Shown: one piece after another, positions 29,197 through 44,923 of the stretch | Layout of the letters: every line of letters begins with the position of its first letter | Position numbering within the stretch: the stretch's first letter is position 1 | From: Candidatus Poribacteria bacterium | GTDB lineage: Bacteria; Abyssobacteria; SURF-5 | DNA: 44,923 nt | Direction: 5' to 3' | NCBI GenBank assembly: GCA_016215705.1 | Contig: JACRIR010000049.1 | Coordinates: 1-44,923 of the forward strand | Notes under the pieces: model-generated | The model's input: the letters and a program-made list of their open reading frames with translations, nothing else | What the model was told of the DNA's origin: nothing | Database searches by the model: none | Program-made: the position numbers and the translations under genes

Positions 29197-30417
29197 TTAC
29201 AAATCTATCTTGGTCACGTTTCCCTGCGAGTCGATTCGTTCTGCGTAGAGGACTCGCACAATTTTCTTCTTGCCTTTGGTCTTAACCGGCTTCATCCTGC
29301 CCTGCAATCCGAGAAAATCCTTGGCGTCGATGCATCCTTCGGGAGGCAGCACGCCTTTGGCCGTGACTTTCCCCTCCTGCATGAGGACCACTCCCATAGC
29401 GGCCGGCTCGCCGGTTCCTTCGCCAAGCGCCGCCCCTTCAGAGGCCATGTGCACCCTGTACTCCTGACGCTCTCCGTCTTTCTTCCCTTTGACAACGACC
29501 GACATTGCTCCGCGCTGTATGCCAAACTTCGTCCTCTTCAGTATCCGGTCTCTCTCGCGGATGATATAGGCGACGGCGAAGTCATAAGGGACAACGGCTT
29601 TGCCTGCCACCTCGAGCGGCTCCTTGCTCGCGAGACCGAGTTTGCAGACGCTGCCGGTCAGCTCGTAGTATTCGATCGGAAGCACCGAGCCTTTGTTCGT
29701 GACTTGCCTGACCTTGATATAATTCGGCAGCGTCACTTGCTCAGGATGCGGATACGGATAGAGTGGAACGTTGCCGACAATCGGGAACTCGAATGTCTGC
29801 CTGAGCGCTATCCCGTCTTCTCTAAAGTATTTCACATACTTGAGTTCGCCGTCGAGGAACATGGGGATGTCGATCGTCATGCAGTGGAACCGATGGCCGA
29901 TGACGCCCGGGCCTTCAATCGGTTCGCCGCCATGGGTATGAAAGATATCGACCGAATCGGTTTCGTCGAGAAGAGTATCGGCCACGAACTTTGCGAATAA
30001 ATTGGTGACACCCGGCGACGCGCCCATGCCGATGACCGCCATGACTCCGGCTTTTCTCGCAGCCTTGTCCATCTTCAGAATGTCAACGGTAACGTCAACG
30101 TCGTCGCATATATCGACATAGTTGATGCCCGACTCAATAACCGCGCCCAAAACGGTCTTCACGCTCTTGTAAAAAGGTCCGACACAATTAAGGACAATGT
30201 CGCACCCTTTGATGGCGTTCTTGACGCTCTTGGGGTCTTCCGCGTTTACCTTGACAGCCGTGACGCTCTTCGAGCCTGTCTCAGCGATCAATGCCTTCGC
30301 TTTGGCCATGTTCATGTCACCGATCACGACCTTCGAGAATGTGCCCTGAGCGGCCAATGTCTTCACTGCAACGCTGCCCACCGCCCCACACCCGCCAAGA
30401 ACAATTACTTTCGGCAT
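29197..30417 (-). CDS. Saccharopine dehydrogenase-like NAD(P)-binding protein
   Basis: This 406-residue protein has an N-terminal Rossmann fold, VIVLGGCGAVGSVAVKTLA, and the NCVGPFY and INYVDICDD segments typical of the saccharopine dehydrogenase / homospermidine synthase-like superfamily. GASPGVTNLFAKF follows. AAGGAG precedes the ATG. Family members reduce or oxidise amino-acid conjugates; the exact substrate here is open. It lies just upstream of the FGGY kinase (52 nt) and is probably co-transcribed with it. Confidence 0.88.
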   Translation of the reverse strand: MPKVIVLGGCGAVGSVAVKTLAAQGTFSKVVIGDMNMAKAKALIAETGSKSVTAVKVNAEDPKSVKNAIKGCDIVLNCVGPFYKSVKTVLGAVIESGINYVDICDDVDVTVDILKMDKAARKAGVMAVIGMGASPGVTNLFAKFVADTLLDETDSVDIFHTHGGEPIEGPGVIGHRFHCMTIDIPMFLDGELKYVKYFREDGIALRQTFEFPIVGNVPLYPYPHPEQVTLPNYIKVRQVTNKGSVLPIEYYELTGSVCKLGLASKEPLEVAGKAVVPYDFAVAYIIRERDRILKRTKFGIQRGAMSVVVKGKKDGERQEYRVHMASEGAALGEGTGEPAAMGVVLMQEGKVTAKGVLPPEGCIDAKDFLGLQGRMKPVKTKGKKKIVRVLYAERIDSQGNVTKIDL

Positions 30418-30481
30418 ATGGCTCTCTCCTTATCAAGAAACTCCAATTCGCACCCACACAACTACGGGACAGATTTATATG

Positions 30482-30650
30482 GGCCTGTTGCCCAAATAAG
30501 ATTATACTTGACAGCTTTATCAGGATTGTCATTCTGAGGAGCGAAGCGACGAAGAATCTCTCTTTTTCCTGCAAATCTGCGGCTCCAAACAGGGATTCTT
30601 CGCTTCGCTCAGAATGACAAATATGGTTACTGCTATTTGGGCACCGCGCC
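30482..30650. repeat. Composite palindromic element 2
   Basis: The same outer end GGCCTGTTGCCCAAAT (30482-30497) with a decayed partner at 30635-30650. A different inner inverted repeat, TTGTCATTCTGAGGAGCG (30526) against CGCTCAGAATGACAA (30606), extends through GAAGAATC/GATTCTTC. The outer ends match composite element 1, but the inner part does not. Confidence 0.7.
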
Positions 30651-30670
30651 GTGCATAATCCGATTCGCGC

Positions 30671-31795
30671 TCACAGGTTCTCGATCGCCAGTTCGATTTC
30701 CTGTTTCACCATGCCATTTTCGCACGCCCGGCGAGATTCGAGCGCGGCTTTGGCCTGGCTGCCGCCCAGCCTGCCGAGAGCCCACGCGCACATACCGCGC
30801 ACGGTTTCGTCAGGGTTGTCATCGAGGACTTTGATCAAAAGCGGAATGTCGCCCCGGTCACCCTGATTGCCGATTGCGCGGGCGGCGTTCATTTTCCACT
30901 TCGCGATGTTTTTCCTGGAAATATAGAACGCCAGCGGCCAGACCTTGTTGACATAGTGATCCTCGTTCATGGTGAGCAACGTGACGAGCCGGAAGTCGTT
31001 GGCGCGCACTTCGAGAGACGGATTCGGCGGCAAGTCCTGGTGCATCCACGCCTGGTTTCGCGGGCAGACTTCCTGGCAGCGGTCGCACCCGTACACCCAT
31101 ATTCCCATTGGCTCTCTGATCTCGAGCGGAGTCATCCCCTCTGTATAATAGCTGTTGAATGCGATGCATTTGCGTGGATTCATCTTCTTGGGTGCATAGA
31201 GAGCGCCGGTGGGACATGCTGCGATGCAGGCGTTCTTGCACCACGACGGGCAGCCGAGTTCTACCGAAGGCTCATCAGGTTCGATCTCGGCGTCAAGAAG
31301 CACCGGGATGCTGATAAGCCACGAGGCGCCCAGCATGGACTTCCGGGCATAGGCAAAGCAGTTCTTGCCATAAGTCGCCACGCCGGCACGGGCCGCTGAC
31401 ATTCGCGCGGGAATTTCCTCGCCGAAATGGAAGCGGATATTTTCCTCGCCGAGGAAACTGATGAAACTCATGATATTCAGGTACCAATCCTGCTGCAATT
31501 GGCGATCGTCGGCCAGGTACACGCGCCCGATCTTGCCGGTAAGTTGAGGCGGAAACGCGCGTCGATGGTAGTTGAGGACAAGCACCATGAGGGATTTTGC
31601 CCACGGATGGTTCTGTGAGAGATGCGCTCCCTGTTTGAGGTCCACCCCCTCGACGCTTGATATCCAATCATACATTTCGGGAGGCCGCGAACCGATCTCT
31701 TGAATGTACAAGTCGAGTGGCTCAGCAGTTGTGAACCCGATGTCGTCGAAGCCTAATTCGGAGGCTTTTTCTATCAAACGCTGCTTCAGATTCAT
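30671..31795 (-). CDS. QueG-like (epoxyqueuosine reductase-like) double 4Fe-4S protein
   Basis: This 374-residue protein begins MNLKQRLIEKASELGFDDIG at ATG 31795, after GAGGA. It has two cluster-binding regions, CPSWCKNACIAACPTGALY and YGCDRCQEVCPRN, and C-terminal HEAT-type repeats (AARAIGNQGD, CAWALGRLGG). Layout matches QueG, which uses cobalamin and two 4Fe-4S clusters to make queuosine in tRNA. The first cluster is spaced CX3CX3CX3CP rather than CX2CX2CX3CP, so a different activity is possible. No other queuosine genes are present. Confidence 0.82.
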   Translation of the reverse strand: MNLKQRLIEKASELGFDDIGFTTAEPLDLYIQEIGSRPPEMYDWISSVEGVDLKQGAHLSQNHPWAKSLMVLVLNYHRRAFPPQLTGKIGRVYLADDRQLQQDWYLNIMSFISFLGEENIRFHFGEEIPARMSAARAGVATYGKNCFAYARKSMLGASWLISIPVLLDAEIEPDEPSVELGCPSWCKNACIAACPTGALYAPKKMNPRKCIAFNSYYTEGMTPLEIREPMGIWVYGCDRCQEVCPRNQAWMHQDLPPNPSLEVRANDFRLVTLLTMNEDHYVNKVWPLAFYISRKNIAKWKMNAARAIGNQGDRGDIPLLIKVLDDNPDETVRGMCAWALGRLGGSQAKAALESRRACENGMVKQEIELAIENL

Positions 31796-31832
31796 TTGTG
31801 TGTCCTCATTTCTGCTAAATCCGGGTCTATTC

Positions 31833-31874
31833 GAAAATAGGGGGACACGATGAGGCATCATGCCCCCTATTTTC
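31833..31874. repeat. REP palindrome copy 3
   Basis: Arms GAAAATAGGGGGACACGATG and CATCATGCCCCCTATTTTC around centre AGG, with one bulged base. It lies between the M24 gene and the QueG-like gene. Confidence 0.85.
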
Positions 31875-31926
31875 CAAGAACGGGGAAAGGGGGCCACACA
31901 AAGCGCGGGCTTTCCGCTTTCTCGTT

Positions 31927-31954
31927 TCTGAACTCTAGACCCTAAACTCTGAAT
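31927..31954 (+). repeat. Four CNTRRAC heptads
   Basis: TCTGAAC, TCTAGAC, CCTAAAC and TCTGAAT stand in phase, 53 nt from REP copy 3 and next to the M24 stop codon. Confidence 0.65.
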
Positions 31955-31960
31955 CGGTTT

Positions 31961-33130
31961 CTACTGCACCGGAATAATCAGGTCTTCCAGCTTGTCCGGG
32001 GCGGGTGTCAGGTTGAGGTTGCCGGTTTCGGTTATCAAGACTGTGTCTGAATGACGGAACCCGCCCTTACCCTTGATGTAAACTCCCGGCTCTATGCTGA
32101 TAATCATGCCGGGAACAAGTTCTCTGTCGTCTCCGAGGGCTACATATGGCGCTTCGTGGCCGGTTATGCCGAGGCCATGCCCCGTGCGGTGCAAAATATT
32201 GTCGCCATAGCCTGCGCCGACGATGACTTTCCGCACCTTTGCGTCTATCTCGCTCAGGACGGCGCCGGGTTTTGCCATTTCATACGCAAGGGCTCGAGCC
32301 TCCATCGAGACGGAGAAAGGCTTCTTTGCGTCCTCGGGGACGTGCCCGAGGAAAAAGGTCCGTTCTACCTCGACGCCGTAACCGTCCACCTTGCCGGCGA
32401 CAATCGACACATGCGGGCCGCCTTCTTCCATGGCGGTGAACGGCGTCAGAACATAGTGAGGATCATGGGATATGCTGGGAGGCCAAACGGCCGCTGTCAG
32501 CGAAGTTACCATGACATTGAAGGCCGGAATATCGGCAACCACTCTCTCCATCATGAGTCTTTGGACTTCGCTGTATATCATGAGCACTAGCACGCCGGGC
32601 CTCGTGATCTCGAAAAGTTTCTTCTGGCCTTCATTAATAACATCGCAGGCGTGGACGGTTCGGCCGATTTCGTATTCCGTCTTTACGAGCCGGAGGTCTT
32701 CGATGATATCATCGAGAACCAACTCGCCCGGAGTCTTTTTCGAGATGCCATAAGGCAGGGCCGATTCGACGCCGACACGCGCGCCGTCTTTGAAGAGGGG
32801 CCGATACACATCAAACCAGTTCTGCCCCCTAGGCGCCGGAAATTCGTAGTAAGTCGCGTATTCGAGAGGCAGCCGCGCCCGTGACTTCACGTGGGTTGTC
32901 TCAAGCAGAGGGCACACCATTTTCGGCGTTCCCTCTTTGGGTATGACGAGGATAAAGGGCCGCTCGTGAACGGAGTTTGCGAAGTTGGTGAGATAGTAGA
33001 CGTTCACGGGATCGAATGAAACGTAGTAGTCGAGCTTTCTTTGCTTCATCAGGGCGCGCACTCTGTCGAGCCGACTGGTGAGTTCCTGTGCGCTTGGGGG
33101 CGCTGTCGTCGGTTTTGGTTTCTGTGTCAT
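31961..33130 (-). CDS. M24 (pita-bread fold) protein with a degenerate metal site
   Basis: This 389-residue protein starts at ATG 33130 after GGGAGGT. It has a creatinase N-domain (RVRALMKQRKLDYYV, YYLTNF) and an M24 C-domain with HRTGHGLGITGHEAP. The usual metal ligands are changed: the DxG..D-TRT region reads IVAGKVDGYGVEVERTFF (Asp to Val and Asp to Glu), and the last RxED-type Glu region reads RHSDTVL (Glu to Ser). The histidine and IEPG glutamate remain. This pattern resembles creatinase, which needs no metal, more than aminopeptidase P. Function is open. Confidence 0.85.
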   Translation of the reverse strand: MTQKPKPTTAPPSAQELTSRLDRVRALMKQRKLDYYVSFDPVNVYYLTNFANSVHERPFILVIPKEGTPKMVCPLLETTHVKSRARLPLEYATYYEFPAPRGQNWFDVYRPLFKDGARVGVESALPYGISKKTPGELVLDDIIEDLRLVKTEYEIGRTVHACDVINEGQKKLFEITRPGVLVLMIYSEVQRLMMERVVADIPAFNVMVTSLTAAVWPPSISHDPHYVLTPFTAMEEGGPHVSIVAGKVDGYGVEVERTFFLGHVPEDAKKPFSVSMEARALAYEMAKPGAVLSEIDAKVRKVIVGAGYGDNILHRTGHGLGITGHEAPYVALGDDRELVPGMIISIEPGVYIKGKGGFRHSDTVLITETGNLNLTPAPDKLEDLIIPVQ

Positions 33131-33275
33131 GGTTACCTCCCGGGTTGCAGACAATACTATAGAAGAAATCGGGCCTTCAATCAAGTCCTCGTTGCTTACC
33201 ACAGTAGAGCCGAGAGCACAGCGCGGCATAGCCGCAGCCAGACGGCACATATCGGACACAATGAATCGCGTCTCA

Positions 33276-33316
33276 GAAAATCGGGGACATGATGCGACAT
33301 CGTGTCCCCGATTTTC
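33276..33316. repeat. REP palindrome copy 4
   Basis: 19-bp arms GAAAATCGGGGACATGATG and CATCGTGTCCCCGATTTTC (one G-T pair), centre CGA. It lies in the 452-bp divergent spacer 33131-33582. That spacer otherwise shows only a lone TTGACA at 33396 with a poor -10. Confidence 0.85.
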
Positions 33317-33582
33317 TTCATTCATGTCTGTGGGATGCGATTCATTGCACCCTCGTTACTTCCATGTAGGCTGTCGTCCGAAATCACGACAAGGATTGAC
33401 AATTTCAAACGTGAGCGGTACAGCGACCACGCCGCGGGGGAACGGATGCGCGGAATGAATTGCCGATAGCGGTATACATCTTTCCGTCAAAGTGCTAATA
33501 TAGTCACGGTCAGAAGCAAGGTCAATCGTGTAGCGGCATTTTGTCTTTCTTCGGAATAGTCGCTTGCGCCAACGGAGGACTT

Positions 33583-34477: not shown

Positions 34478-36763
34478 TCATCCACGCCTGAGCAGAAGCA
34501 GAAGAAGACTGCCGACGTTCAGCAGAGATGCCGTAAGGCAGGCGTAAGGAATTCCCATCAGCGGCACGAGAATCGTGCTTGTCAACATAGCTCCCAGGCA
34601 CGAGCCAAGCAGGTCGACTCCATAAGTGTAGCCTGCCGCGCGAGCAGCGCCCGGCGTTTGCTCGAGCCAGAGCGCACTAGCCAGCGGGAACTGAAGCCCG
34701 CCGACAAAACCTGCAAAGAATCCGAGAAACGGAAACGACACCTGGGCCTCGAAAACCAGCGCCCCCGGGCTTTCACCGGTTGCTCCTGCTCGGGAAAGCA
34801 TAAGCAGCGCGCCTAACAGAAGCAATGGATACAAACACACGATCGATTGAACCAGAAGGAATGCGCGATGGCTGGCCCCGTTACGCTCGATTGAGCGCGC
34901 CATCGCGAACGCGCCGACTGTCAACCCCGCCATAAAGGCCGTAGTAATGATCGCGACTTTGTAGTAGACAAAGCCGTGGATCGCCTGAAAGCCCAACAGG
35001 GTGACAACCTCCACCGCTATCTCGGCGAATCCGGTTGTCGCGACCGCCACGAGGAGCGATTTCTGTCCCCATGAAATCGGGAAGAGTTGTTGAATCAAGA
35101 GCGCAACCGAGACGACGACGCCGAGACCAACAAAAATCCAGAAGGGACGAACCCGTGCGAGGGAGGAAAGAATATCACCGGAAACATCCTTGAATTGTTT
35201 GCTCCACAGAACGGCATCGTAATAATAGCAGATGGGAGCGAGATCGGTGTTCAATCTCGCTTTTGCGGTCGCCAGAGCCGAGGCAAGCCGCTCCTTTCGT
35301 TCTTCGGACAACCGATACGGTAAGTAATATTCCCGTATGTACTGCAGCTTCTCCTTTATCCCTCTTGTATCGAGCCGCCTGATCAGTTCGTCGCTGTCAA
35401 GCGTCAGAACCGCAGGCTTGCAACACGCGAGAAAAACATTCGACTCGCCCGGTATGACTTTAACGTCAGGGAACACCTCGCGCAGCGTCTTGTCGAGACA
35501 TCCGAGAAACTGCTGCAGCTCGGGAGAAATATAATTCTCGGCCGACCCCACGCGAAACGATAGTATGCCGTCGGACGCAAGCCTGTTCTTGCACTCGCGG
35601 AAAAACTCGAGAGTATAGAATCGGTTGATCAGCGCAGTGTAGGGGTCGGGCAGATTTATTATTATGACGTCATAAGTTTCGTGCGTTGTCTTGACATATA
35701 GCCGCCCATCGACCGTGTGAACGGCCGCCCTCGGATTTTCGAGCCCGGAGGTAATGTCAGACGGAAAGAATTTTCCCACGATTCCGATAACGCGCGGGTC
35801 GAGCTCGATATAATCAGCTTTTTCGACAGGATGCTTGAGCACTTCAGTAAGAGAGCCGTTGACGCCGCCGCCGATGAGCAAAACGCTCTTGGGCAGTGGA
35901 TGCTCGAGGAGCGCGAAATGCACAGCCTCCTCGGCCGAGAATCTGTCCGGGTACGAGAACATAAGAAGGCCGTTTTCATACAGCGTTTTCTGTTCTTCTT
36001 TTTCAACAAACGCGATGTTTCCGTAGATGGAGTCTTCGGAGTGCGTGACCTTCAGTTCCCGCCAAAGCCACTCGAGGCTTTGCGCGCGAAGCCACGCCGA
36101 TCCCCCAAAGAAGGCTGTGACGGCCGTCGCAACCGCTAGGGCAGAAACCGCAAGTACTTCCCAACGGTGACGCCTGTCCAGCGCCAGTATTGCAGCCGCC
36201 GCACCCATATTGATAACAAGCAGCAGCCACGCGATCTCTGACGGTTCGAGGACCTTGACAAGAATCCAGGCAAAGGCGACGCCGCCCGACGCCGCGCCCA
36301 GCGCCTCGAATACATAGACCGACCCTATCGAGGCGGCTGCATCTTCCTCTCCGCTCCACACGTGACAGAAGGCATCGAATAGGAACCCGAGAAGCAGACA
36401 CATTGGTGAGAGCATTAGAAACGAGGAGACGACAATGGGAGCATAGCCGAGTATTTCCCCGACCGAAGCATGCCTGAGGAGAGACGGAAGCGCACGGGCT
36501 GCCAGAAACGAACCTACTGCCGCCAGCCCGAGGAGGGCCTGCGAGAGCGCAAGCGCCCTTAGCCGGCTGAACACCTTGAACCTCGGCAGAAGGACTGCCG
36601 CAAGAAGACTCCCGACACCCACCCAGAACAGCCATGCGCCGAGCATGATGCCGAGCGACAGTTCGTTCCCGTAGAAGACGACGATCATCTCGCGCATGAG
36701 CAAAATCTGGCCCAGCATCGAGGTGAATCCAAGCGCAGCGAACAGGTGGAAGGGTTTTCCCAT
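34478..36763 (-). CDS. Membrane-embedded spermidine synthase-like protein
   Basis: This 761-residue protein has about seven N-terminal helices, a soluble SpeE-like methyltransferase fold at roughly residues 235-480, and about seven C-terminal helices. The central domain has LLIGGGVNGSLTEVL, YIELDPRVI, VHTVDGRLYV and YDVIIINLPDPYTALINRFYT. Classical SpeE reads GGGDG and DSSDP, so one catalytic Asp is replaced in NLPDP. Such fused-MFS/SpeE proteins are widespread but uncharacterised. Polyamine synthesis cannot be assumed. No clear ribosome-binding site precedes the ATG. Confidence 0.88.
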   Translation of the reverse strand: MGKPFHLFAALGFTSMLGQILLMREMIVVFYGNELSLGIMLGAWLFWVGVGSLLAAVLLPRFKVFSRLRALALSQALLGLAAVGSFLAARALPSLLRHASVGEILGYAPIVVSSFLMLSPMCLLLGFLFDAFCHVWSGEEDAAASIGSVYVFEALGAASGGVAFAWILVKVLEPSEIAWLLLVINMGAAAAILALDRRHRWEVLAVSALAVATAVTAFFGGSAWLRAQSLEWLWRELKVTHSEDSIYGNIAFVEKEEQKTLYENGLLMFSYPDRFSAEEAVHFALLEHPLPKSVLLIGGGVNGSLTEVLKHPVEKADYIELDPRVIGIVGKFFPSDITSGLENPRAAVHTVDGRLYVKTTHETYDVIIINLPDPYTALINRFYTLEFFRECKNRLASDGILSFRVGSAENYISPELQQFLGCLDKTLREVFPDVKVIPGESNVFLACCKPAVLTLDSDELIRRLDTRGIKEKLQYIREYYLPYRLSEERKERLASALATAKARLNTDLAPICYYYDAVLWSKQFKDVSGDILSSLARVRPFWIFVGLGVVVSVALLIQQLFPISWGQKSLLVAVATTGFAEIAVEVVTLLGFQAIHGFVYYKVAIITTAFMAGLTVGAFAMARSIERNGASHRAFLLVQSIVCLYPLLLLGALLMLSRAGATGESPGALVFEAQVSFPFLGFFAGFVGGLQFPLASALWLEQTPGAARAAGYTYGVDLLGSCLGAMLTSTILVPLMGIPYACLTASLLNVGSLLLLLLRRG

Positions 36764-38273: not shown

Positions 38274-39101
38274 TCAGTTTGCTCCTCTTTCTTTCCTTAC
38301 CTTGTCAACAGTGCTATCGAGGACCCTGGTCACGAGCGACGGCGCAAACCGGTTCAGTATCCAGAGCATCTTACCTGCGAAGTTGGGGATAATAATCAGC
38401 CTTCCTTTCTCCAGACCGCTGATCGCAGATCGGGCCACGTCCTCCGGCTGCATGATGCTCGCGCCTTCGGATATCCTTCGCGTCTCAATCGGCTTCATCT
38501 TTATATCGTCCACCAGCATGGGAGTATCGGTGTCAGGCGGGCAGAGCACTGAAACCACAATGCCGTACGGACGAAGTTCCGCCTTCACGGCTTCCGAAAA
38601 CCCGATGATCGCAAACTTTGAAGCGCCATAGCCCGCGTAACCGAAAATGCCCTTGACTCCGGCGAGGCTCGAGACATTGAGTATCCACCCGCGCCGTCTT
38701 TGTATCATCCCGTCTATGACGCTCCTGACCATATAGACAGTGCCGAGGTAATTCACTGTTATTTCTGCTTCTATGTTTGAGATGGGGGTCTTCTCGATAT
38801 AGCCTGCGTTCGAGACGCCCGCCGAATTCACAAGAACCACCGGAGGCCCGCACGCGGCCTCGGCGGCTTTGACCGCCGCCTGCACCTGGCTCAGGACAGC
38901 GACATCGGCCTTGAAACAGCCGAACTGCTGCGACGGGCTCACGGCGTGCTTTTTGACCTCTTCAAGCGTCGCCTTCAGCAGGTCTTCCCTGCGGGCTATC
39001 AGGAACACGTTCGCGCCGCGACGAGCAAGCTCCTTGGCAATCGCCTTTCCGATGCCGCTCGACCCGCCGGTTACAATCGCGCATCCACCCCGAATGTCCA
39101 T
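38274..39101 (-). CDS. Short-chain dehydrogenase (3-ketodihydrosphingosine reductase-like)
   Basis: This 275-residue SDR has the cofactor motif TGGSSGIGKAIA with an ARR that suggests NADPH, NSAG, and the catalytic S..YxxxK in VSSLAGVKGIFGYAGYGASK. The segment LCPPDTDTPML matches the PPDTDTP motif characteristic of the KDSR branch that reduces 3-ketosphinganine. The C-terminus is hydrophobic and basic, fitting membrane contact. This could mean sphingolipid synthesis, but no serine palmitoyltransferase is present. AAGGAGTGA precedes the ATG. Last gene of the minus-strand run. Confidence 0.85.
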   Translation of the reverse strand: MDIRGGCAIVTGGSSGIGKAIAKELARRGANVFLIARREDLLKATLEEVKKHAVSPSQQFGCFKADVAVLSQVQAAVKAAEAACGPPVVLVNSAGVSNAGYIEKTPISNIEAEITVNYLGTVYMVRSVIDGMIQRRRGWILNVSSLAGVKGIFGYAGYGASKFAIIGFSEAVKAELRPYGIVVSVLCPPDTDTPMLVDDIKMKPIETRRISEGASIMQPEDVARSAISGLEKGRLIIIPNFAGKMLWILNRFAPSLVTRVLDSTVDKVRKERGAN

Positions 39102-39181
39102 GTCACTTCACTCCTTATTTTCACACAAACCCCGCCGCAGGCTGGTCCGGCGCGCCCCGAATGACATCTCTTTCCTCCGAC

Positions 39182-39202
39182 CCTAGACTCGCGATTCGAG
39201 AC
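39182..39202 (+). repeat. Three decayed heptads
   Basis: CCTAGAC, TCGCGAT and TCGAGAC in 7-nt phase, in the spacer between the two SDR genes. Only two fit the RAC ending, so this is weak. Confidence 0.35.
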
Positions 39203-39229
39203 TTCTCTTCCCTTTCGCCTATTCTGTCG

Positions 39230-40015
39230 TTACGGCGTCGGGACTTCCGGTAAAGAGTTGCCGCCGTCTATGACCACCTGCGTGCCCGTGATATACGTGG
39301 ATTCGTCGGAAGCGAGGAACGACGCAAGTTCGCCGATCTCGAGAGGGTTGCCGAGCCTGCCCATCGGTATCGTGCTTGCGATCATATCAAGGATGGGTTC
39401 GGGGTCGTCGGGGCTGAATTCCCGAGCGGCGTTTTCGACCATCGGCGTTCGAATCATTCCCGGACATATGGCGTTCACGGTTATGTTGTCTTTGACGACT
39501 TCGATGGCGAGCGCTTTTGTGAATCCCCAGAGCGCCGCCTTTGTGGTGGCATATGCCGTCTCGCCGGAATTCACAACCATTGGCCCCGTCACGGACGACA
39601 TGATTACAATTCTTCCGTATTTCTTTTCGATCATATGAGGGAGAACGGCCTTCGTGCAGTTCCACACCCCTTTAATGTTGACGTCAAAATGGAAATCCCT
39701 GACCTCGTCGCTCATTTCCAGGAATTTGATCATTCGAGTGACGCCCGCGTTGTTGCACAGGATGTCTATTTTGCCGAGTTTGTTCGCGATGTCGTCAGCG
39801 GCAGCCTTGCAGTCGCCGAATTTCCTGACATCTACTTTGAACGGCGACGCTTTGTAGCCTTCAGATTGGATCGCTTTTGCGGTCTCGAACACCTTGTCGG
39901 AAATATCCCATAGCGCGACATGCGCGCCGTATTTTGCCATCACTCGCGCTATCCCCTCGCCGTTGCCCATGGCGGCCCCCGTGACTACAGCAATTCTTCC
40001 GTCGAGCTTGCCCAT
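39230..40015 (-). CDS. Short-chain dehydrogenase (UcpA-like)
   Basis: This 261-residue classical SDR begins MGKLDGRIAVVTGAAMGNG at ATG 40015. The frame extends to 40066, but the shorter start matches the UcpA-type N-terminus. It has NNAGV, the catalytic SS..YATTK motif in MSSVTGPMVVNSGETAYATTK, and ICPGMIRTPM. The glycine motif is TGAAMGNGEG (TGxxxGxG). Part of the run with the AcoX-type and P-protein-like genes. The substrate is unknown. Confidence 0.9.
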   Translation of the reverse strand: MGKLDGRIAVVTGAAMGNGEGIARVMAKYGAHVALWDISDKVFETAKAIQSEGYKASPFKVDVRKFGDCKAAADDIANKLGKIDILCNNAGVTRMIKFLEMSDEVRDFHFDVNIKGVWNCTKAVLPHMIEKKYGRIVIMSSVTGPMVVNSGETAYATTKAALWGFTKALAIEVVKDNITVNAICPGMIRTPMVENAAREFSPDDPEPILDMIASTIPMGRLGNPLEIGELASFLASDESTYITGTQVVIDGGNSLPEVPTP

Positions 40016-40069
40016 TTTGTCCCGCCTTTCGTAAATTCCCCTCAAGAATCTGTCCCGCAATCCCACAGG

Positions 40070-40087
40070 TGCGAATTCGTTCGCACG
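40070..40087. repeat. GTGCGAA-type palindrome
   Basis: GTGCGAA, TTCG, TTCGCAC: a 7-bp perfect stem with a UUCG-type loop. Same family as 34317-34380. Lies in the spacer between the AcoX-type and UcpA-like genes. Confidence 0.6.
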
Positions 40088-40121
40088 CGCGACTCTCTCT
40101 TAGTCCCCCTCTCACCTTCTA

Positions 40122-41237
40122 TCAGTACCCGACCTTGTGCATCACATAATCTCTATAGCCGGTGACCACTCGAACGTAACCCTTGAGTTCTTGATCCAGC
40201 GCTTCGTCGCCCGTGTCAACAAGTAGCGGCCTGCCAGACAATGATATGAGTTTTTCTTTGGTGGCAATAACGATTATGTTCTCCTTGCCGACCTCGCGGA
40301 TGACGCGGGGGCTGATCTGCTGATTGCCGCGACCGAAGACGTGTCCCTGTCCGCCGATAATAGTTACTATGATCTTGGCCTTATGTCCTTTCACAAGCCC
40401 AATCAGTTGGCTCTCGGTGACGTCGTTCGCAATAAGCCGTTTGTTACCAATAACGTCGATGCCGAGAAGCGTATTCCTGAGGCCCAGCCTGTCCATGATA
40501 ACTCTTGTAGTGGTTCCGGGACCTATTATGTAGAAACATTCATCATTCATCTCAGAGATGACGTCGTCGGCAATTCCGTGCAGCGCTCGCTGCTCAGACA
40601 CGATTGCGCCTGATTTGACACTCTGAATGAATCGCCTCTCGTCGGGCACGGTGAGATAACCATAGAGCCGGGCAGCGACAACTCCATTTCGAAAGGCGTC
40701 CTCATCGATATCCATGACTTCCGCCGAGCGAGTGTTCTTCAATCTGCCGTCGAGAAACATCGCCGCCACCTCACCGGCGCTTTTCGGCGAAACAGCGTAC
40801 ACTGCCGAGTGGATTTTCACGCCCGCGGGCACGCCAAGCGCCGGCGCACTCTCCCCTATCGCATCGCAGATGTTGCGCGCAGTGCCGTCGCCACCGGCGA
40901 AGAGCAGCAGCGAAACTCCGGCGGCTGCCATTTCCTTAGCAGCCCGTTGTGTGTCCCGAGAGGTGGTCTCTCCGCTGCTTATGGCGCCGACTACCGTGGG
41001 ATTAAACCCGGCCGAGCGGCATTCGTTCTCCCCCATCTCTGACGGATACGCTATGACTTCGATATGGTCTTTGAGGCGGGCGATCACCTTGAGCGCCTCG
41101 ATTGCCTTCTGTGGAGACTCAGGTTGCGCGCCCAATTGGCGGGCCTGCCCGAGAATTTCCGTGCCGTCGGTCCCCTTAAGACCGACGCGCCCGCCCATGC
41201 CTGCAATCGGATTGACAACAACACCCAGTTTCTTCAT
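40122..41237 (-). CDS. ATP-NAD kinase / AcoX-family protein
   Basis: This 371-residue protein starts MKKLGVVVNPIAGMGGRVGL (ATG 41237); the frame opens earlier at 41300, overlapping the upstream gene. The NAD-kinase fold is marked by NPIAGMGG, then the ATP-site FAGGDGTARNI (GGDGT) and GVPAGVKIHSAVYAVSP. It belongs to the long AcoX-like branch first seen in acetoin operons, whose reaction is unproven. It is 26 nt after the P-protein-like subunit 2 gene, which implies a linked role such as cofactor or substrate phosphorylation. Confidence 0.88.
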   Translation of the reverse strand: MKKLGVVVNPIAGMGGRVGLKGTDGTEILGQARQLGAQPESPQKAIEALKVIARLKDHIEVIAYPSEMGENECRSAGFNPTVVGAISSGETTSRDTQRAAKEMAAAGVSLLLFAGGDGTARNICDAIGESAPALGVPAGVKIHSAVYAVSPKSAGEVAAMFLDGRLKNTRSAEVMDIDEDAFRNGVVAARLYGYLTVPDERRFIQSVKSGAIVSEQRALHGIADDVISEMNDECFYIIGPGTTTRVIMDRLGLRNTLLGIDVIGNKRLIANDVTESQLIGLVKGHKAKIIVTIIGGQGHVFGRGNQQISPRVIREVGKENIIVIATKEKLISLSGRPLLVDTGDEALDQELKGYVRVVTGYRDYVMHKVGY

Positions 41238-41263
41238 CGATTTTGGATTTCGGAACCATCCCC

Positions 41264-42826
41264 CTATTGCATCCCCTTTATTCTCTTGTACTGCCTCCAC
41301 GTGGTCGCAATATTTTCCGGATCGAGGATAGCCGGCACAGGGATATCGTGGATGGGCGCATTGTGCGGAGCGCCAAAAAGGATTTCGGAATTCTCATACG
41401 CCTCCTTCGATATCTGGCGCAGAACGGCGGCAAACTCGTCGATGTCATCCTTCGAGTATGACTCGCACGGCTCGAGCGTGAATGGCTCGGGGACCACCAT
41501 TGGATGATGACTTTGGAAGTAGTGCTGCACGCCGTAGTCAACCATTCGCCGCTCAACCTGGTCGCTTCCAACCCCCGTCTCTTCCGTCAATTTCTCCCAC
41601 GAGTACCGCACCTGCTCCAGCCTGCGCTTGCCTTGCGCGTACCAAACGACAACACCGGGGATTTCCCTTATCTTCTTCTCGAGATAGTTGTTGTTGAGCA
41701 CGGACACTTCGGCGGCCTCTCTCAGGCCGTCGGCCCCATGCTGCATGATCCACGCATACGCCTTCAGAGCTAGAGGCGCGTTCCCGAAAAATGACCGGAC
41801 ACGGCCGATGCTCTCGGGCCGATTATAGTCCAGATAGTACCTCTTACCGTCGAACTCGACTCTCGGGACGGGCAGGAACTTTGCGAGTTCCTTGGTTACG
41901 CCCAACGCCCCCATAGCCGGCCCCATGCAGCCGTGCGGCGCCGAGAACGTCTTATGAATGTTGAAGTGGCAGAGATCAAACCCGGCCTCTTTTGCCCGCG
42001 CAATACCCAGAAGCCCGTTTGCGTTGGCCTGGTCGTATGAGCATAACGCTCCGACTTCATGCGCCGCCCTGACGTAGTCGTCTATCTCGGGATTATAGAT
42101 GCCTGTGTCTTCGGGGTTCGTGATAAATATGCCGGCTGTGTGTTTGGAGAGCGCTCCCTTCAGCGCGCCCATGTCCGGATAGCCGTTCTCCCCCGGCATA
42201 AGCGTTATGACCTTGTAGCCGGCTGTCGCGGGCGCAGCCGCGTCAACCGGATGCGAGAACATGGTGGTGATGATTTCATTCCGTTCGCGGTCACCGCGTG
42301 ACGCATGATATGCTCTGATAATGCAGGCGTTCGTGTAAATGGCCTGACTGCCGCTGCTCGGCTGCAAGCAGAAATAATCGAGGCCGGAAATCTCTTTGAG
42401 GAAGCGCTCCATCTTGTAATATACTTCAAGGATTCCCTGGAGCGTATCGTCATCCTGCAAAGGATGTATTTCAGTCATGCCCGGATGCCGCGCGGCCAAA
42501 TGTTCCTGGACCTTCGGGCTGTATTTCATCGTGCAGGTGCCTTCCCCGATATCAATCGTCACGTCAGCGCCCATAGTCTCCTGCGACAGGCGCATGAAAT
42601 GCCTGAGAACACGCATTTGACCGACCTCCGGCAGCGCAGGCGGCTGTCTTCTCCGCAAGCTTTCAGGGATTGCCGACACTCCGTCTCCCGCTTCGGCGCA
42701 TATTGCTTGTTCGGCTTTGGGAACAAGGATTCCCCTCTCGCCCGGCACGCTCATTTCGAAAATGATTTCCTCATCCCATCGAGCCTGGTGAAATTTTCGA
42801 AGCAGCGTCTCTTTATTTCTGCCCAT
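41264..42826 (-). CDS. Divergent glycine dehydrogenase subunit 2-like PLP enzyme (GcvPB-like)
   Basis: This 520-residue fold-type I PLP protein aligns with GcvPB along its length. It keeps GTCTMKYSPK (98-107), Asp265 in SYDQANANGLLG and the PLP lysine K292 in HKTFSAPHG. It departs at signature sites: PAAGAHGE becomes PSSGSQAI (the PLP-stacking His is lost), SAHGTNPAS becomes FSHPVDAAA, and HGGGGPGxGPV becomes HGCMGPAMGAL. AAGGAG lies 8 nt before the ATG, 12 nt after the partner gene. I infer a paralogue with another substrate. Confidence 0.9.
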   Translation of the reverse strand: MGRNKETLLRKFHQARWDEEIIFEMSVPGERGILVPKAEQAICAEAGDGVSAIPESLRRRQPPALPEVGQMRVLRHFMRLSQETMGADVTIDIGEGTCTMKYSPKVQEHLAARHPGMTEIHPLQDDDTLQGILEVYYKMERFLKEISGLDYFCLQPSSGSQAIYTNACIIRAYHASRGDRERNEIITTMFSHPVDAAAPATAGYKVITLMPGENGYPDMGALKGALSKHTAGIFITNPEDTGIYNPEIDDYVRAAHEVGALCSYDQANANGLLGIARAKEAGFDLCHFNIHKTFSAPHGCMGPAMGALGVTKELAKFLPVPRVEFDGKRYYLDYNRPESIGRVRSFFGNAPLALKAYAWIMQHGADGLREAAEVSVLNNNYLEKKIREIPGVVVWYAQGKRRLEQVRYSWEKLTEETGVGSDQVERRMVDYGVQHYFQSHHPMVVPEPFTLEPCESYSKDDIDEFAAVLRQISKEAYENSEILFGAPHNAPIHDIPVPAILDPENIATTWRQYKRIKGMQ

Positions 42827-42838
42827 TGCTGATTCTCC

Positions 42839-44242
42839 TTATTCTATTGCGTCGCCCAGGGCGCTCACGAGCCTGTCTATGTCTTCTTTTGTCACGATCT
42901 CGGTAACGCAGTAAAGAGCGCTCTGGCCGAGGTCAGAGAACTCGCCGGAAACATCTTTCCCGCCGAAAATCTTGTGCTCGAGCAATGCTTTGTTTATCCG
43001 CTTGACGCTCTTGCCCGTTCCGTCAAAATTGACGACGAATTCCTTGAAAAACGGCGACGCAAACGCGAGCTTGACTCCCTTGAGGGAGGATATGCGCTTG
43101 GCCGCATACTGCGCCTTCTGCATGATTGTCTGGCCGAGTTCTTCCATTCCTTTGGGACCCATCAAGGACAAATACACCGCCGCAGTAATCGCCCAAAGAC
43201 CGGTGTTTGTTCCGGTGAATTCATTGGCCTCCTCTCGCCCGAAGTATGAGAGATTTATGGGAAGCACTACACCGAAACCGTGTTCGCCCTCTTTGACCGT
43301 ATCCGTGATGCTGACAATGATGTCTTTGAATTTGGTCGCATGGTCCATGTCGAATACGCTCGCGATGAAGCCCGATTGGCCGCCTCCGCACTGCATATGA
43401 ATTCCGAGGGAGTGCAAATCACCACAGACAATTGTTGCGCCATATTGGGCAGGCGGTTTGACGACGCCAAGTGAGATCGGATCCGCATACACAATGAACT
43501 CCGCGCCTTTTTCTCGAGCGAGCTTCCCTATCTCTTCGGCCTGTGTCTCGAGCGAGCCGAGATATGTCGGGTTCTCGATGAAAACGGCTGCAGTTTCAGC
43601 GGAAAGCTTGGATTTCAAATCGTTCAAATCGAGCAAGCCGGTCTCGCGGTTGAATTCAATGGTCTCGATTGCGACAGGAGTTCCCGATGCCCGTTTGAGA
43701 TAGTTTCTCACGACCATCAAGACCTCGGGGTTCATCGATTTCGGGATGAGCACGTGGCTGCGACCGGTGAGACGGGTGGCCATGCTGAGCGCCGTCGCTG
43801 CCGCCTGCGCGCCGTCGTAAGTGGGAATGCTCAGAAAATCCATGTCGAGCAACTCGCCCATCAGGCTCTGATACTCGAACCACGCCTGCCATTTTCCGTG
43901 GTCGGCCCACATGAGGCTCGAGTACGCCGTCAAGAACTCGCCGCGCCCGTTAATCTCGTCGCAGACGGCAGGCACAAAGTGTTGCGCGCACCCTGCACCC
44001 AGGAAATTCAGGTATTCGGAGCAGTTCTTGTTCTTGTTCAAAAGTCCTTCGACGTGTCTCCGAATCGAATACTCGTCGAGGATCGGTTCCGGCAGATTCA
44101 TTCTCCCTTTGAAGCGCAAATGTTCCGGTATCTCGGCGTATAGTTCCATGATGTCGCTCACGCCGACTTCCTTGAGCATTTGCGCCTTCACTTCGGGCAC
44201 GGAGTTGGGGATATAGGGAAACACGATTTTCTTTTCGGTCAT
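42839..44242 (-). CDS. Divergent glycine dehydrogenase subunit 1-like protein (GcvPA-like)
   Basis: This 467-residue partner subunit starts at ATG 44242 with AAGGAG 5 nt upstream; an earlier ATG at 44257 would place that site inside the gene. The N-terminal YIPNSVPEVKAQMLKEVGVS and FEYQSLMGELLDMD clearly match GcvPA. The signature TAYTPYQPExxQG is replaced by TAYSSLMWADHG (105-116), GGGxYDH by GAGCAQH, and the late RREKATSNICTNQAL block by EEANEFTGTNTGLWA. In true P-protein these segments shape the glycine/lipoyl site, so substrate use has probably changed. Confidence 0.9.
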   Translation of the reverse strand: MTEKKIVFPYIPNSVPEVKAQMLKEVGVSDIMELYAEIPEHLRFKGRMNLPEPILDEYSIRRHVEGLLNKNKNCSEYLNFLGAGCAQHFVPAVCDEINGRGEFLTAYSSLMWADHGKWQAWFEYQSLMGELLDMDFLSIPTYDGAQAAATALSMATRLTGRSHVLIPKSMNPEVLMVVRNYLKRASGTPVAIETIEFNRETGLLDLNDLKSKLSAETAAVFIENPTYLGSLETQAEEIGKLAREKGAEFIVYADPISLGVVKPPAQYGATIVCGDLHSLGIHMQCGGGQSGFIASVFDMDHATKFKDIIVSITDTVKEGEHGFGVVLPINLSYFGREEANEFTGTNTGLWAITAAVYLSLMGPKGMEELGQTIMQKAQYAAKRISSLKGVKLAFASPFFKEFVVNFDGTGKSVKRINKALLEHKIFGGKDVSGEFSDLGQSALYCVTEIVTKEDIDRLVSALGDAIE

Positions 44243-44294
44243 ACACACTCCTTCCACTTAAGCCGGGTTGCGGATTTCTTCAGAAACCGATAGC

Positions 44295-44323
44295 ACTATA
44301 ATGATGCATTTATGTCTTGTCAA
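44295..44323 (-). promoter_or_regulatory. Consensus promoter of the GcvPA/PB-like operon
   Basis: On the minus strand: perfect -35 TTGACA (44323-44318), 17-nt spacer, -10 TATAGT (44300-44295, 5 of 6). A start near 44288 would give a leader of about 45 nt before the GcvPA-like ATG. Confidence 0.85.
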
Positions 44324-44448
44324 GAAATACATGAATATTATGCGCAAAAGAGCAACACTTGCTTCCAAAATTGATGCAATTTCGTAAATCGAGGGAATTT
44401 CCAATGTCGCTGCGAGTGGATCGCCGACTTCGCCGGATCATTTGATTG

Positions 44449-44587
44449 GTTTCTGGTTCACGGTTCATCGTTCATGGTTCTCAACCTCAAACCCCAAACC
44501 TTGAACTTTGAACCTTGAACTTCTAACCTTGAACCTTGCCCTTCTTCGCAACCATAAACCATAAACCATAAACCATGAACCATGAAC
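44449..44587. repeat. Long heptad array with an orientation switch
   Basis: Five reverse units (GTTTCTG, GTTCACG, GTTCATC, GTTCATG, GTTCTCA) run to 44483. Forward units then follow: CTCAAAC, CCCAAAC, CTTGAAC, TTTGAAC, CTTGAAC, TTCTAAC, CTTGAAC and CTTGCCC. After a break come CATAAAC three times and CATGAAC twice (44553-44587). About 18 units in total. Confidence 0.85.
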
Positions 44588-44923
44588 CCCGCGCGCTTCG
44601 CGCCGCCCCTTTCGCCTTGTTCCTTCCGTCTCTACGTGTCCACGTCCATCAGCCCGCGTCGGCGGTTAATAAGCAGTTTCTCGTTCCTTCTTTCTGGTTC
44701 AATCCAAAACATGTCCTCGACTCCGATCGGGGATCCAAAATCACTCTTGTCCAAGATAACAGAAAGGAATCCCCGAAAGAGTCTGTCACTACTGAGTAAC
44801 ACTGACATGCACAAACCAGGAAACCCCTTTGTCATGAACAGCAGAGGCGAAACAACTTGCACAAATCATCAACCGCAGAGTACGCAGAGTTCGCTGAGGA
44901 TATTGGCTTTTGCCGTTTTCCTC
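44588..44923. other. Spacer at the right edge, no gene recognised
   Basis: It contains a pyrimidine-rich CCTTTCGCC segment (44608) and a CCGCAGAGTACGCAGAG dispersed repeat (44873-44899). A minus-strand open frame 44632-44862 has no clear ribosome-binding site or family and is not called. Confidence 0.4.

Follow-up and report, generated by a model that had tools for sequence, protein, structure and literature searches.

A divergent P-protein-like subunit pair coupled to an AcoX-type kinase-like protein

We analysed a 44,923-nucleotide stretch of a Candidatus Poribacteria bacterium assembly (GTDB lineage Abyssobacteria, SURF-5; contig JACRIR010000049.1; hereafter the window), in which five open reading frames (ORFs) form one minus-strand cluster, called here A, B, X, SDR1 and SDR2 in transcription order. 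A and B resemble GcvPA and GcvPB, the two subunits of the pyridoxal 5'-phosphate (PLP)-dependent P-protein (glycine decarboxylase), X resembles AcoX and the ATP-NAD kinases, and the last two are short-chain dehydrogenases (SDRs). Judged by their trees and clade-wide residue changes, A and B are a distinct family within the glycine-decarboxylase superfamily. The gene content of carrier genomes indicates that the pair works without H-protein and probably without lipoate. Its obligate partner is X, not the SDRs, a point absent from an earlier reading of this DNA made without database searches (the sequence-only reading). We tentatively propose, with a probability of about 0.35, that X and an A2B2 enzyme would together form a lyase system for the catabolism of a 1,2-amino alcohol or a hydroxy-amino acid. 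The features of the cluster are the following.

A, 42839..44242, minus strand: GcvPA-like subunit of 467 aa in the divergent PLP heterodimer, with a GTG at 44257 as another possible start; PF02347 183 bits, NF001696 457 bits (cut-off 364), divergent clade in the A tree, Protein Data Bank (PDB) folds 9a73_A and 1wyt_A.
B, 41264..42826, minus strand: GcvPB-like catalytic half, 520 aa, with PLP Lys292 and Asp265; NF003346 534 bits (cut-off 441), divergent clade in the B tree, clade-specific N- and C-terminal extensions.
X, 40122..41237, minus strand: ATP-NAD-kinase-family / AcoX-type protein, 371 aa, ORF open to GTG 41300; PF01513 and PF20143 over cut-off, GGDG motif, A/B partner in Synergistota.
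SDR1, 39230..40015, minus strand: UcpA-type short-chain dehydrogenase recurring with the module, ORF open to GTG 40066; NF006080 390 bits (cut-off 356), orthologues at other A/B loci, nearest solved structure 6qhe.
SDR2, 38274..39101, minus strand: second SDR, without a conserved link to the module; its profile matches are to generic SDRs only.
Putative sigma-70-type promoter, 44295..44323, minus strand: TTGACA-17-TATAGT upstream of A, 11/12 consensus positions.

A separate family of the P-protein scaffold

By their Pfam and NCBIfam matches, A and B belong to the P-protein family, above the gcvPA and gcvPB equivalog cut-offs, and P-proteins are their nearest solved structures both by sequence and by predicted fold, at 31-34% identity. 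These cut-offs (NF001696 and NF003346) do not separate the divergent from the canonical clade. When 84,980 species genomes were scanned with B, 30 loci were obtained, in Abyssobacteria, Desulfobacterota, Syntrophomonadaceae, Acidobacteriota, Synergistota, Sedimentibacter, Actinomycetota, Bacteroidota and a metagenome-assembled genome (MAG) labelled Thaumarchaeota, and relatives with 43-50% identity lie on plasmids of Gemmobacter, Rhodococcus, Sphingomonas, Paracoccus, Antarctobacter, Roseicitreum and Natronosalvus. The B profile matched 58 of 188 genomes in Synergistota; in the phyla to which Desulfospira and Salinibacterium belong, the counts were 5 of 297 and 2 of 296, the centre genome being counted each time. 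We then built trees of 83 B and 102 A sequences by a quick search with no bootstrap, the Thermus thermophilus protein (1wyt) being among the canonical rows. In both trees a single branch, with a support of 100 in the SH-like approximate likelihood ratio test (SH-aLRT), divides the divergent from the canonical rows, so that the subunits fall outside the clade of bona fide GcvPA and GcvPB. Together with the clade-wide motif changes and a separate canonical gcv set in the genome, this strongly supports the sequence-only proposal of a distinct PLP enzyme on the P-protein scaffold. No account of the divergent clade was found in the literature searched, which left most subscription journals outside its coverage, and nothing was found there on an A/B pair with AcoX or DUF436 in such a context.

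The PLP residues Lys292 and Asp265 of B, noted earlier as intact, are invariant across 20 divergent B sequences. Among the marker motifs described as lost, GGGxYDH and PAAGAHGE turned out to be weak evidence: the former is loose in true P-proteins too (GGGVRSHH in T. thermophilus, GAGSYEHH in the canonical copy of the same genome), and the His to Gln change in the latter occurs also in long-form P-proteins. The remaining changes are real, clade-wide and more extensive than had been claimed. The TPYQPExSQ motif of A is not kept, P97, Y98, Q99, E101, S103 and Q104 being replaced or deleted across 52 divergent A sequences; in T. thermophilus numbering, Y98 is deleted in 52/52, S103 is changed to D in 52/52 and P97 to G in 49/52. 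According to the mapping made in this analysis, Y95 and Y98 of T. thermophilus A are Y161 and Y164 of the human P-protein (GLDC), which are given as active-site residues (PMC7259800). The clade consensus of this segment is TAYxGExYxDHG, with a further departure in the window (SSLMWADHG) and in its nearest relative, L040 (SGFFWGDHG). In B, again in T. thermophilus numbering, the changes T214 to D, C373 to R, V378 to R, Y405 to H and M415 to T are each found in 41/41 sequences, and a column comparison showed the key divergent-clade changes to be absent from canonical P-proteins. Divergent B sequences also carry extra segments, FHxAxWxE at the N-terminus and DDPxxWAxTWRAY at the C-terminus. The C-terminal domain of B has gained two invariant arginines, R402 and R407, which would fit the holding of an acidic group of the substrate.

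The sequence-only reading had asked for a second, canonical gcv set in the genome. Such a set, comprising gcvT, gcvH, gcvPA and gcvPB with the usual motifs, is present on contig C165, which excludes the divergent pair as the only P-protein of this genome; its GcvPA scores 423 bits with PF02347 as against 183 for the A of the window. The window itself contains no gcvT or gcvH, as had been stated, the matches of the genome being on C165, C225 and C2 (lpd was not searched for). Beside the canonical H-protein, the genome also encodes four further GcvH-like proteins (about 254-279 aa), of which three stand in tandem (G000, C225:29155-31137 and C2:9588-9884).

We next compared 68 carrier genomes. 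All have A-type subunits with PF02347 scores in the divergent range (about 130-260 bits), and 37 also have a canonical one (360-590 bits). A full GCV_H match (80 bits or more) was obtained in 39 of the 68, including all 37 with canonical P-protein. Both H-protein and canonical P-protein are absent from the other 29, of which 27 gave no GCV_H match and two (G800 and G841) only fragments below 24 bits. LplA or LipB over cut-off is absent from 22 of these 29 and present in 9/9 H-positive controls, other lipoylation routes not having been searched. Many of the 29 are MAGs; G795 (C1 of 3,585,187 bases in about 3.6 Mb) and G781 (C1 of 2,630,170 in about 2.6 Mb) look essentially complete and lack both proteins. 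These carriers indicate that A/B works without H-protein, so that the pair cannot be the P-protein of glycine cleavage there. Of the 11 canonical loci scanned, 4 have a glycine riboswitch (L199, L201, L202 and L212), as against 0 of 7 divergent loci; among the latter, L062, L066 and L163 share genomes with riboswitch-bearing canonical loci. In the window, the RNA family search found three tRNAs and no other family, thus no glycine riboswitch. At two loci of the Desulfospira phylum, L142 (G439:C239) and L143 (G363:C413), canonical gcvPA-gcvPB and divergent A-B stand back to back on opposite strands.

X and the other neighbours of A/B

Gene neighbourhoods were compared within about 5.5 kb between 68 divergent loci with enough flank and 28 canonical loci. 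X lies near A/B at 62 of the 68 divergent loci and at no canonical one, while H-protein (0/68 versus 25/28) and T-protein (0/68 versus 24/28) show the opposite distribution. In Synergistota, X occurs in 22/22 carriers tested and in 0/20 non-carriers. Where a genome has A/B twice, it has X twice as well (G669, G696 and G064). X contains the N- and C-terminal NAD_kinase domains of Pfam, and the GGDG kinase motif is kept in 73/73 X proteins; a PDB sequence search found no homologue of X. To our knowledge, AcoX itself has no assigned reaction. In G776 (C1:410497-411602), X is split into two overlapping frames, possibly by a frameshift. An apparent B-X fusion in Kitasatospora, a 923-aa open frame, was rejected as an out-of-frame high-GC extension upstream of X.

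The sequence-only reading had grouped X with both SDRs and called for a neighbourhood analysis, in which X and SDRs indeed recur with the divergent clade and SDR2 does not. An SDR is found at 49/68 divergent and 0/28 canonical loci. Nine further A/B loci have orthologues of SDR1, with 56-83% identity. For SDR2, the identity to the SDRs of related loci does not exceed 33%, and other loci carry other SDR subfamilies. SDRs are thus common in the module but interchangeable. The closest solved structure to SDR1 is 6qhe, matched with 214 bits over 254 residues. It represents an Arthrobacter TS-15 alcohol dehydrogenase (PMC7656694), and the same strain is the source of ephedrine and pseudoephedrine dehydrogenases (PMC11842280), which weakly suggests a 1,2-amino alcohol substrate. 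As for SDR2, the earlier idea of an amino-lipid pathway with a KDSR-like enzyme found no support: apart from the lack of conservation, the match to TSC10 (8jat, 91.5 bits), a 3-ketodihydrosphingosine reductase (KDSR) of solved structure, ranks under about 15 generic SDRs, the best being an acetoin reductase at 98 bits, and SDR2 was rejected as a KDSR/TSC10 protein.

Further genes that recur near A/B encode APC permeases, DUF436, a B12-binding radical SAM protein, ArgE/DapE-type M20 deacylases, iron-containing alcohol dehydrogenases, sigma-54 regulators, FCD-type GntR regulators, NhaC/ArcD-type carriers, TRAP transporters, DUF819 and Tdh-like zinc alcohol dehydrogenases. The transporters, deacylases and FCD-type GntR regulators fit amino-acid catabolism. 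On plasmids, the module has acyl-CoA synthetases as neighbours in Gemmobacter and Rhodococcus and, in Gemmobacter, also a primary-amine oxidase. DUF436 (UPF0340) and the B12-binding radical SAM protein accompany the module at L055, L056, L058, L059, L060 and L149, in Acetomicrobium, Synergistaceae, a Caldisericota MAG and a Clostridia genome.

Sugar-related genes were found at five loci. L066 carries, successively and on a single strand, an MGH1-like (GH63-type) glycosidase, sugar ABC genes, a GH42 beta-galactosidase, A, B, X, an SDR and an aldo-keto reductase. The order GH42, A, B, SDR is repeated at L065, whose first ORF clusters with the MGH1-like protein of L066. L063 contains A, B, X, an SDR, an ABC permease and an MGH1-like protein; L057 contains A, B, X, a GH2 beta-galactosidase, an MGH1-like protein and LacI; and L061 contains an SDR, A, B, GH42, dipeptidyl-peptidase IV and a relative of ornithine cyclodeaminase.

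Candidate reactions of the module

In the reaction that we favour, an amine or amino acid imported by amino-acid-type carriers would be phosphorylated on its hydroxyl, or otherwise ATP-activated, by X, whose fold group includes NAD kinase, diacylglycerol kinase and sphingosine kinase. A2B2 would then bind the amine on PLP and either eliminate the activated group or cleave the adjacent C-C bond, much as phosphohydroxylysine phospho-lyase or sphingosine-1-phosphate (S1P) lyase does. The carbonyl released would be reduced or oxidised by SDR1 here, and elsewhere by various SDRs, iron or zinc alcohol dehydrogenases or an aldo-keto reductase. We prefer to place the kinase step first because X is obligate and the oxidoreductase is not. 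Several observations weigh against this proposal. X is absent from the genome of one carrier MAG (L061/G065) and is not beside A/B in Natronosalvus, and the neighbours vary by lineage, which makes a single common substrate uncertain. The heterodimer is known only through single-chain models of moderate quality (mean predicted local distance difference test score, pLDDT, of 80 for A and 67 for B), and the fold match to S1P lyase is common to many fold-type I decarboxylases.

X could also simply be an NAD kinase supplying NADP. A/B would then be a lipoate-independent decarboxylase, racemase or transaminase-like enzyme acting on a non-glycine amino acid, which we regard as doubtful: X is above the Pfam NAD_kinase cut-offs, decarboxylation is the ancestral chemistry of A/B and a primary-amine oxidase is a neighbour in Gemmobacter, but cells normally have a housekeeping NAD kinase, so that the strict coupling of a second one to A/B would be odd, and the invariant R402 and R407 would fit the retention of an acidic group. 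It is possible, though again rather doubtful, that the SDR acts first and oxidises a 1,2-amino alcohol to an alpha-aminoketone, whose bond between carbonyl and amino carbon A/B would cleave by a retro-Claisen reaction. The aminomethyl-type carbanion is one that the P-protein already stabilises, acyl replacing CO2, and X would have a role in NADP supply or a side role. The frequency of SDRs near A/B, the maintenance of SDR1 orthologues across phyla, the link of their nearest structure to an ephedrine-oxidising strain and the plasmid-borne acyl-CoA synthetases and amine oxidase would all agree with such an order. However, it leaves X as obligate partner unexplained, and the oxidoreductase varies, or is absent at 19/68 loci. 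That the annotation is right and A/B is a divergent but genuine glycine-decarboxylase P-protein using the H-protein of its genome is very improbable. The pair passes both equivalog cut-offs and its own genome has an H-protein, but the H-less carriers described above, most of them also without LplA/LipB, the distribution of riboswitches, the deleted active-site motif and the fact that the divergent pair is never beside gcvH or gcvT all argue against it.

A more specific version of the kinase-and-lyase proposal, which we consider unlikely though worth stating, is that A/B/X is a previously undescribed, lipoate-free bacterial pathway for 5-hydroxylysine. Collagen carries Glc-alpha-1,2-Gal-beta-O-hydroxylysine, and 5-hydroxylysine is peculiar to collagen-type proteins. 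The MGH1-like proteins and beta-galactosidase or sugar genes beside the module suggest glucose-galactose on an amino-alcohol aglycone, which fits glucosylgalactosyl-hydroxylysine, and the ArgE/DapE-type deacylases and ArcD-like carrier at other loci count in the same direction. Glycosidases would remove glucose and galactose, X and A/B would break the amino-alcohol end and SDRs would process the carbonyl. This lead rests on the five sugar-linked loci, and the family may well serve several substrates; no bacterial hydroxylysine gene cluster was found in the literature searched.

Surroundings, significance and relation to known systems

The distance of 26 nt between B and X reported earlier holds with X starting at the conserved ATG 41237; A and B are 12 nt apart, and all five ORFs are present at full length in the order described. 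The match to a consensus promoter also exists at 44323-44295 and is the best of the region: the scan gave 5 sites of at least 9/12 against 3.9 expected, and only this one stands out, by its high score. The stretch 44430-44600, upstream of the cluster, contains short words that nearly repeat each other, among them aaccataaaccat and ttgaaccttgaa. Downstream, at a distance of 5-9 kb (29197-33325), the strand of the cluster also encodes saccharopine-dehydrogenase-like, 4Fe-4S/HEAT-repeat and M24 (creatinase/prolidase-like) peptidase proteins. A spermine/spermidine synthase domain is found in the 761-aa product of 34478-36763, whose sequence resembles that of a membrane protein.

Since curated rules name A and B gcvPA and gcvPB, metabolic models will wrongly credit glycine cleavage to carriers that lack it, 29 of the carriers here being H-less. 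In this family the two-subunit scaffold of glycine decarboxylase, commonly regarded as dependent on H-protein and lipoate, has been freed of the former and probably of the latter, and reused with a kinase-like partner. About a third of Synergistota, a phylum of anaerobes noted for fermenting amino acids, carry the family, and plasmids bear it in Alphaproteobacteria, Rhodococcus and a haloarchaeon, so that a catabolic route for amino acids with some ecological importance may have been overlooked. Through X, the function of AcoX-type kinase-like proteins also becomes approachable.

A/B shares with the two-subunit P-proteins of known structure (T. thermophilus 1wyt, and 9a73) the fold, the two subunits, the PLP Lys and Asp and the equivalog hits, and differs from them by its own clade, its deleted or replaced signature residues, its extra terminal segments, its apparent independence of H-protein and lipoate, and X in place of gcvT and gcvH. 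X resembles AcoX of acetoin operons and the ATP-NAD kinase family in its NAD_kinase domains and GGDG motif, and differs in being coupled to A/B. SDR1 is only moderately similar to its closest counterparts, the Arthrobacter TS-15 enzyme and UcpA. After P-proteins, S1P lyases are nearest to A/B in the fold search, among the fold-type I lyases and decarboxylases, with 14-16% identity. The logic of a kinase followed by a PLP lyase would be that of sphingosine kinase and S1P lyase, but S1P lyase is not a heterodimer and nothing here points to a lipid substrate. The same logic, phosphorylation of an amino alcohol followed by PLP-dependent elimination to an aldehyde, would be shared with human hydroxylysine kinase (HYKK) and phosphohydroxylysine phospho-lyase (PHYKPL), which belong to families unrelated to X and A/B (no sequence comparison was made).

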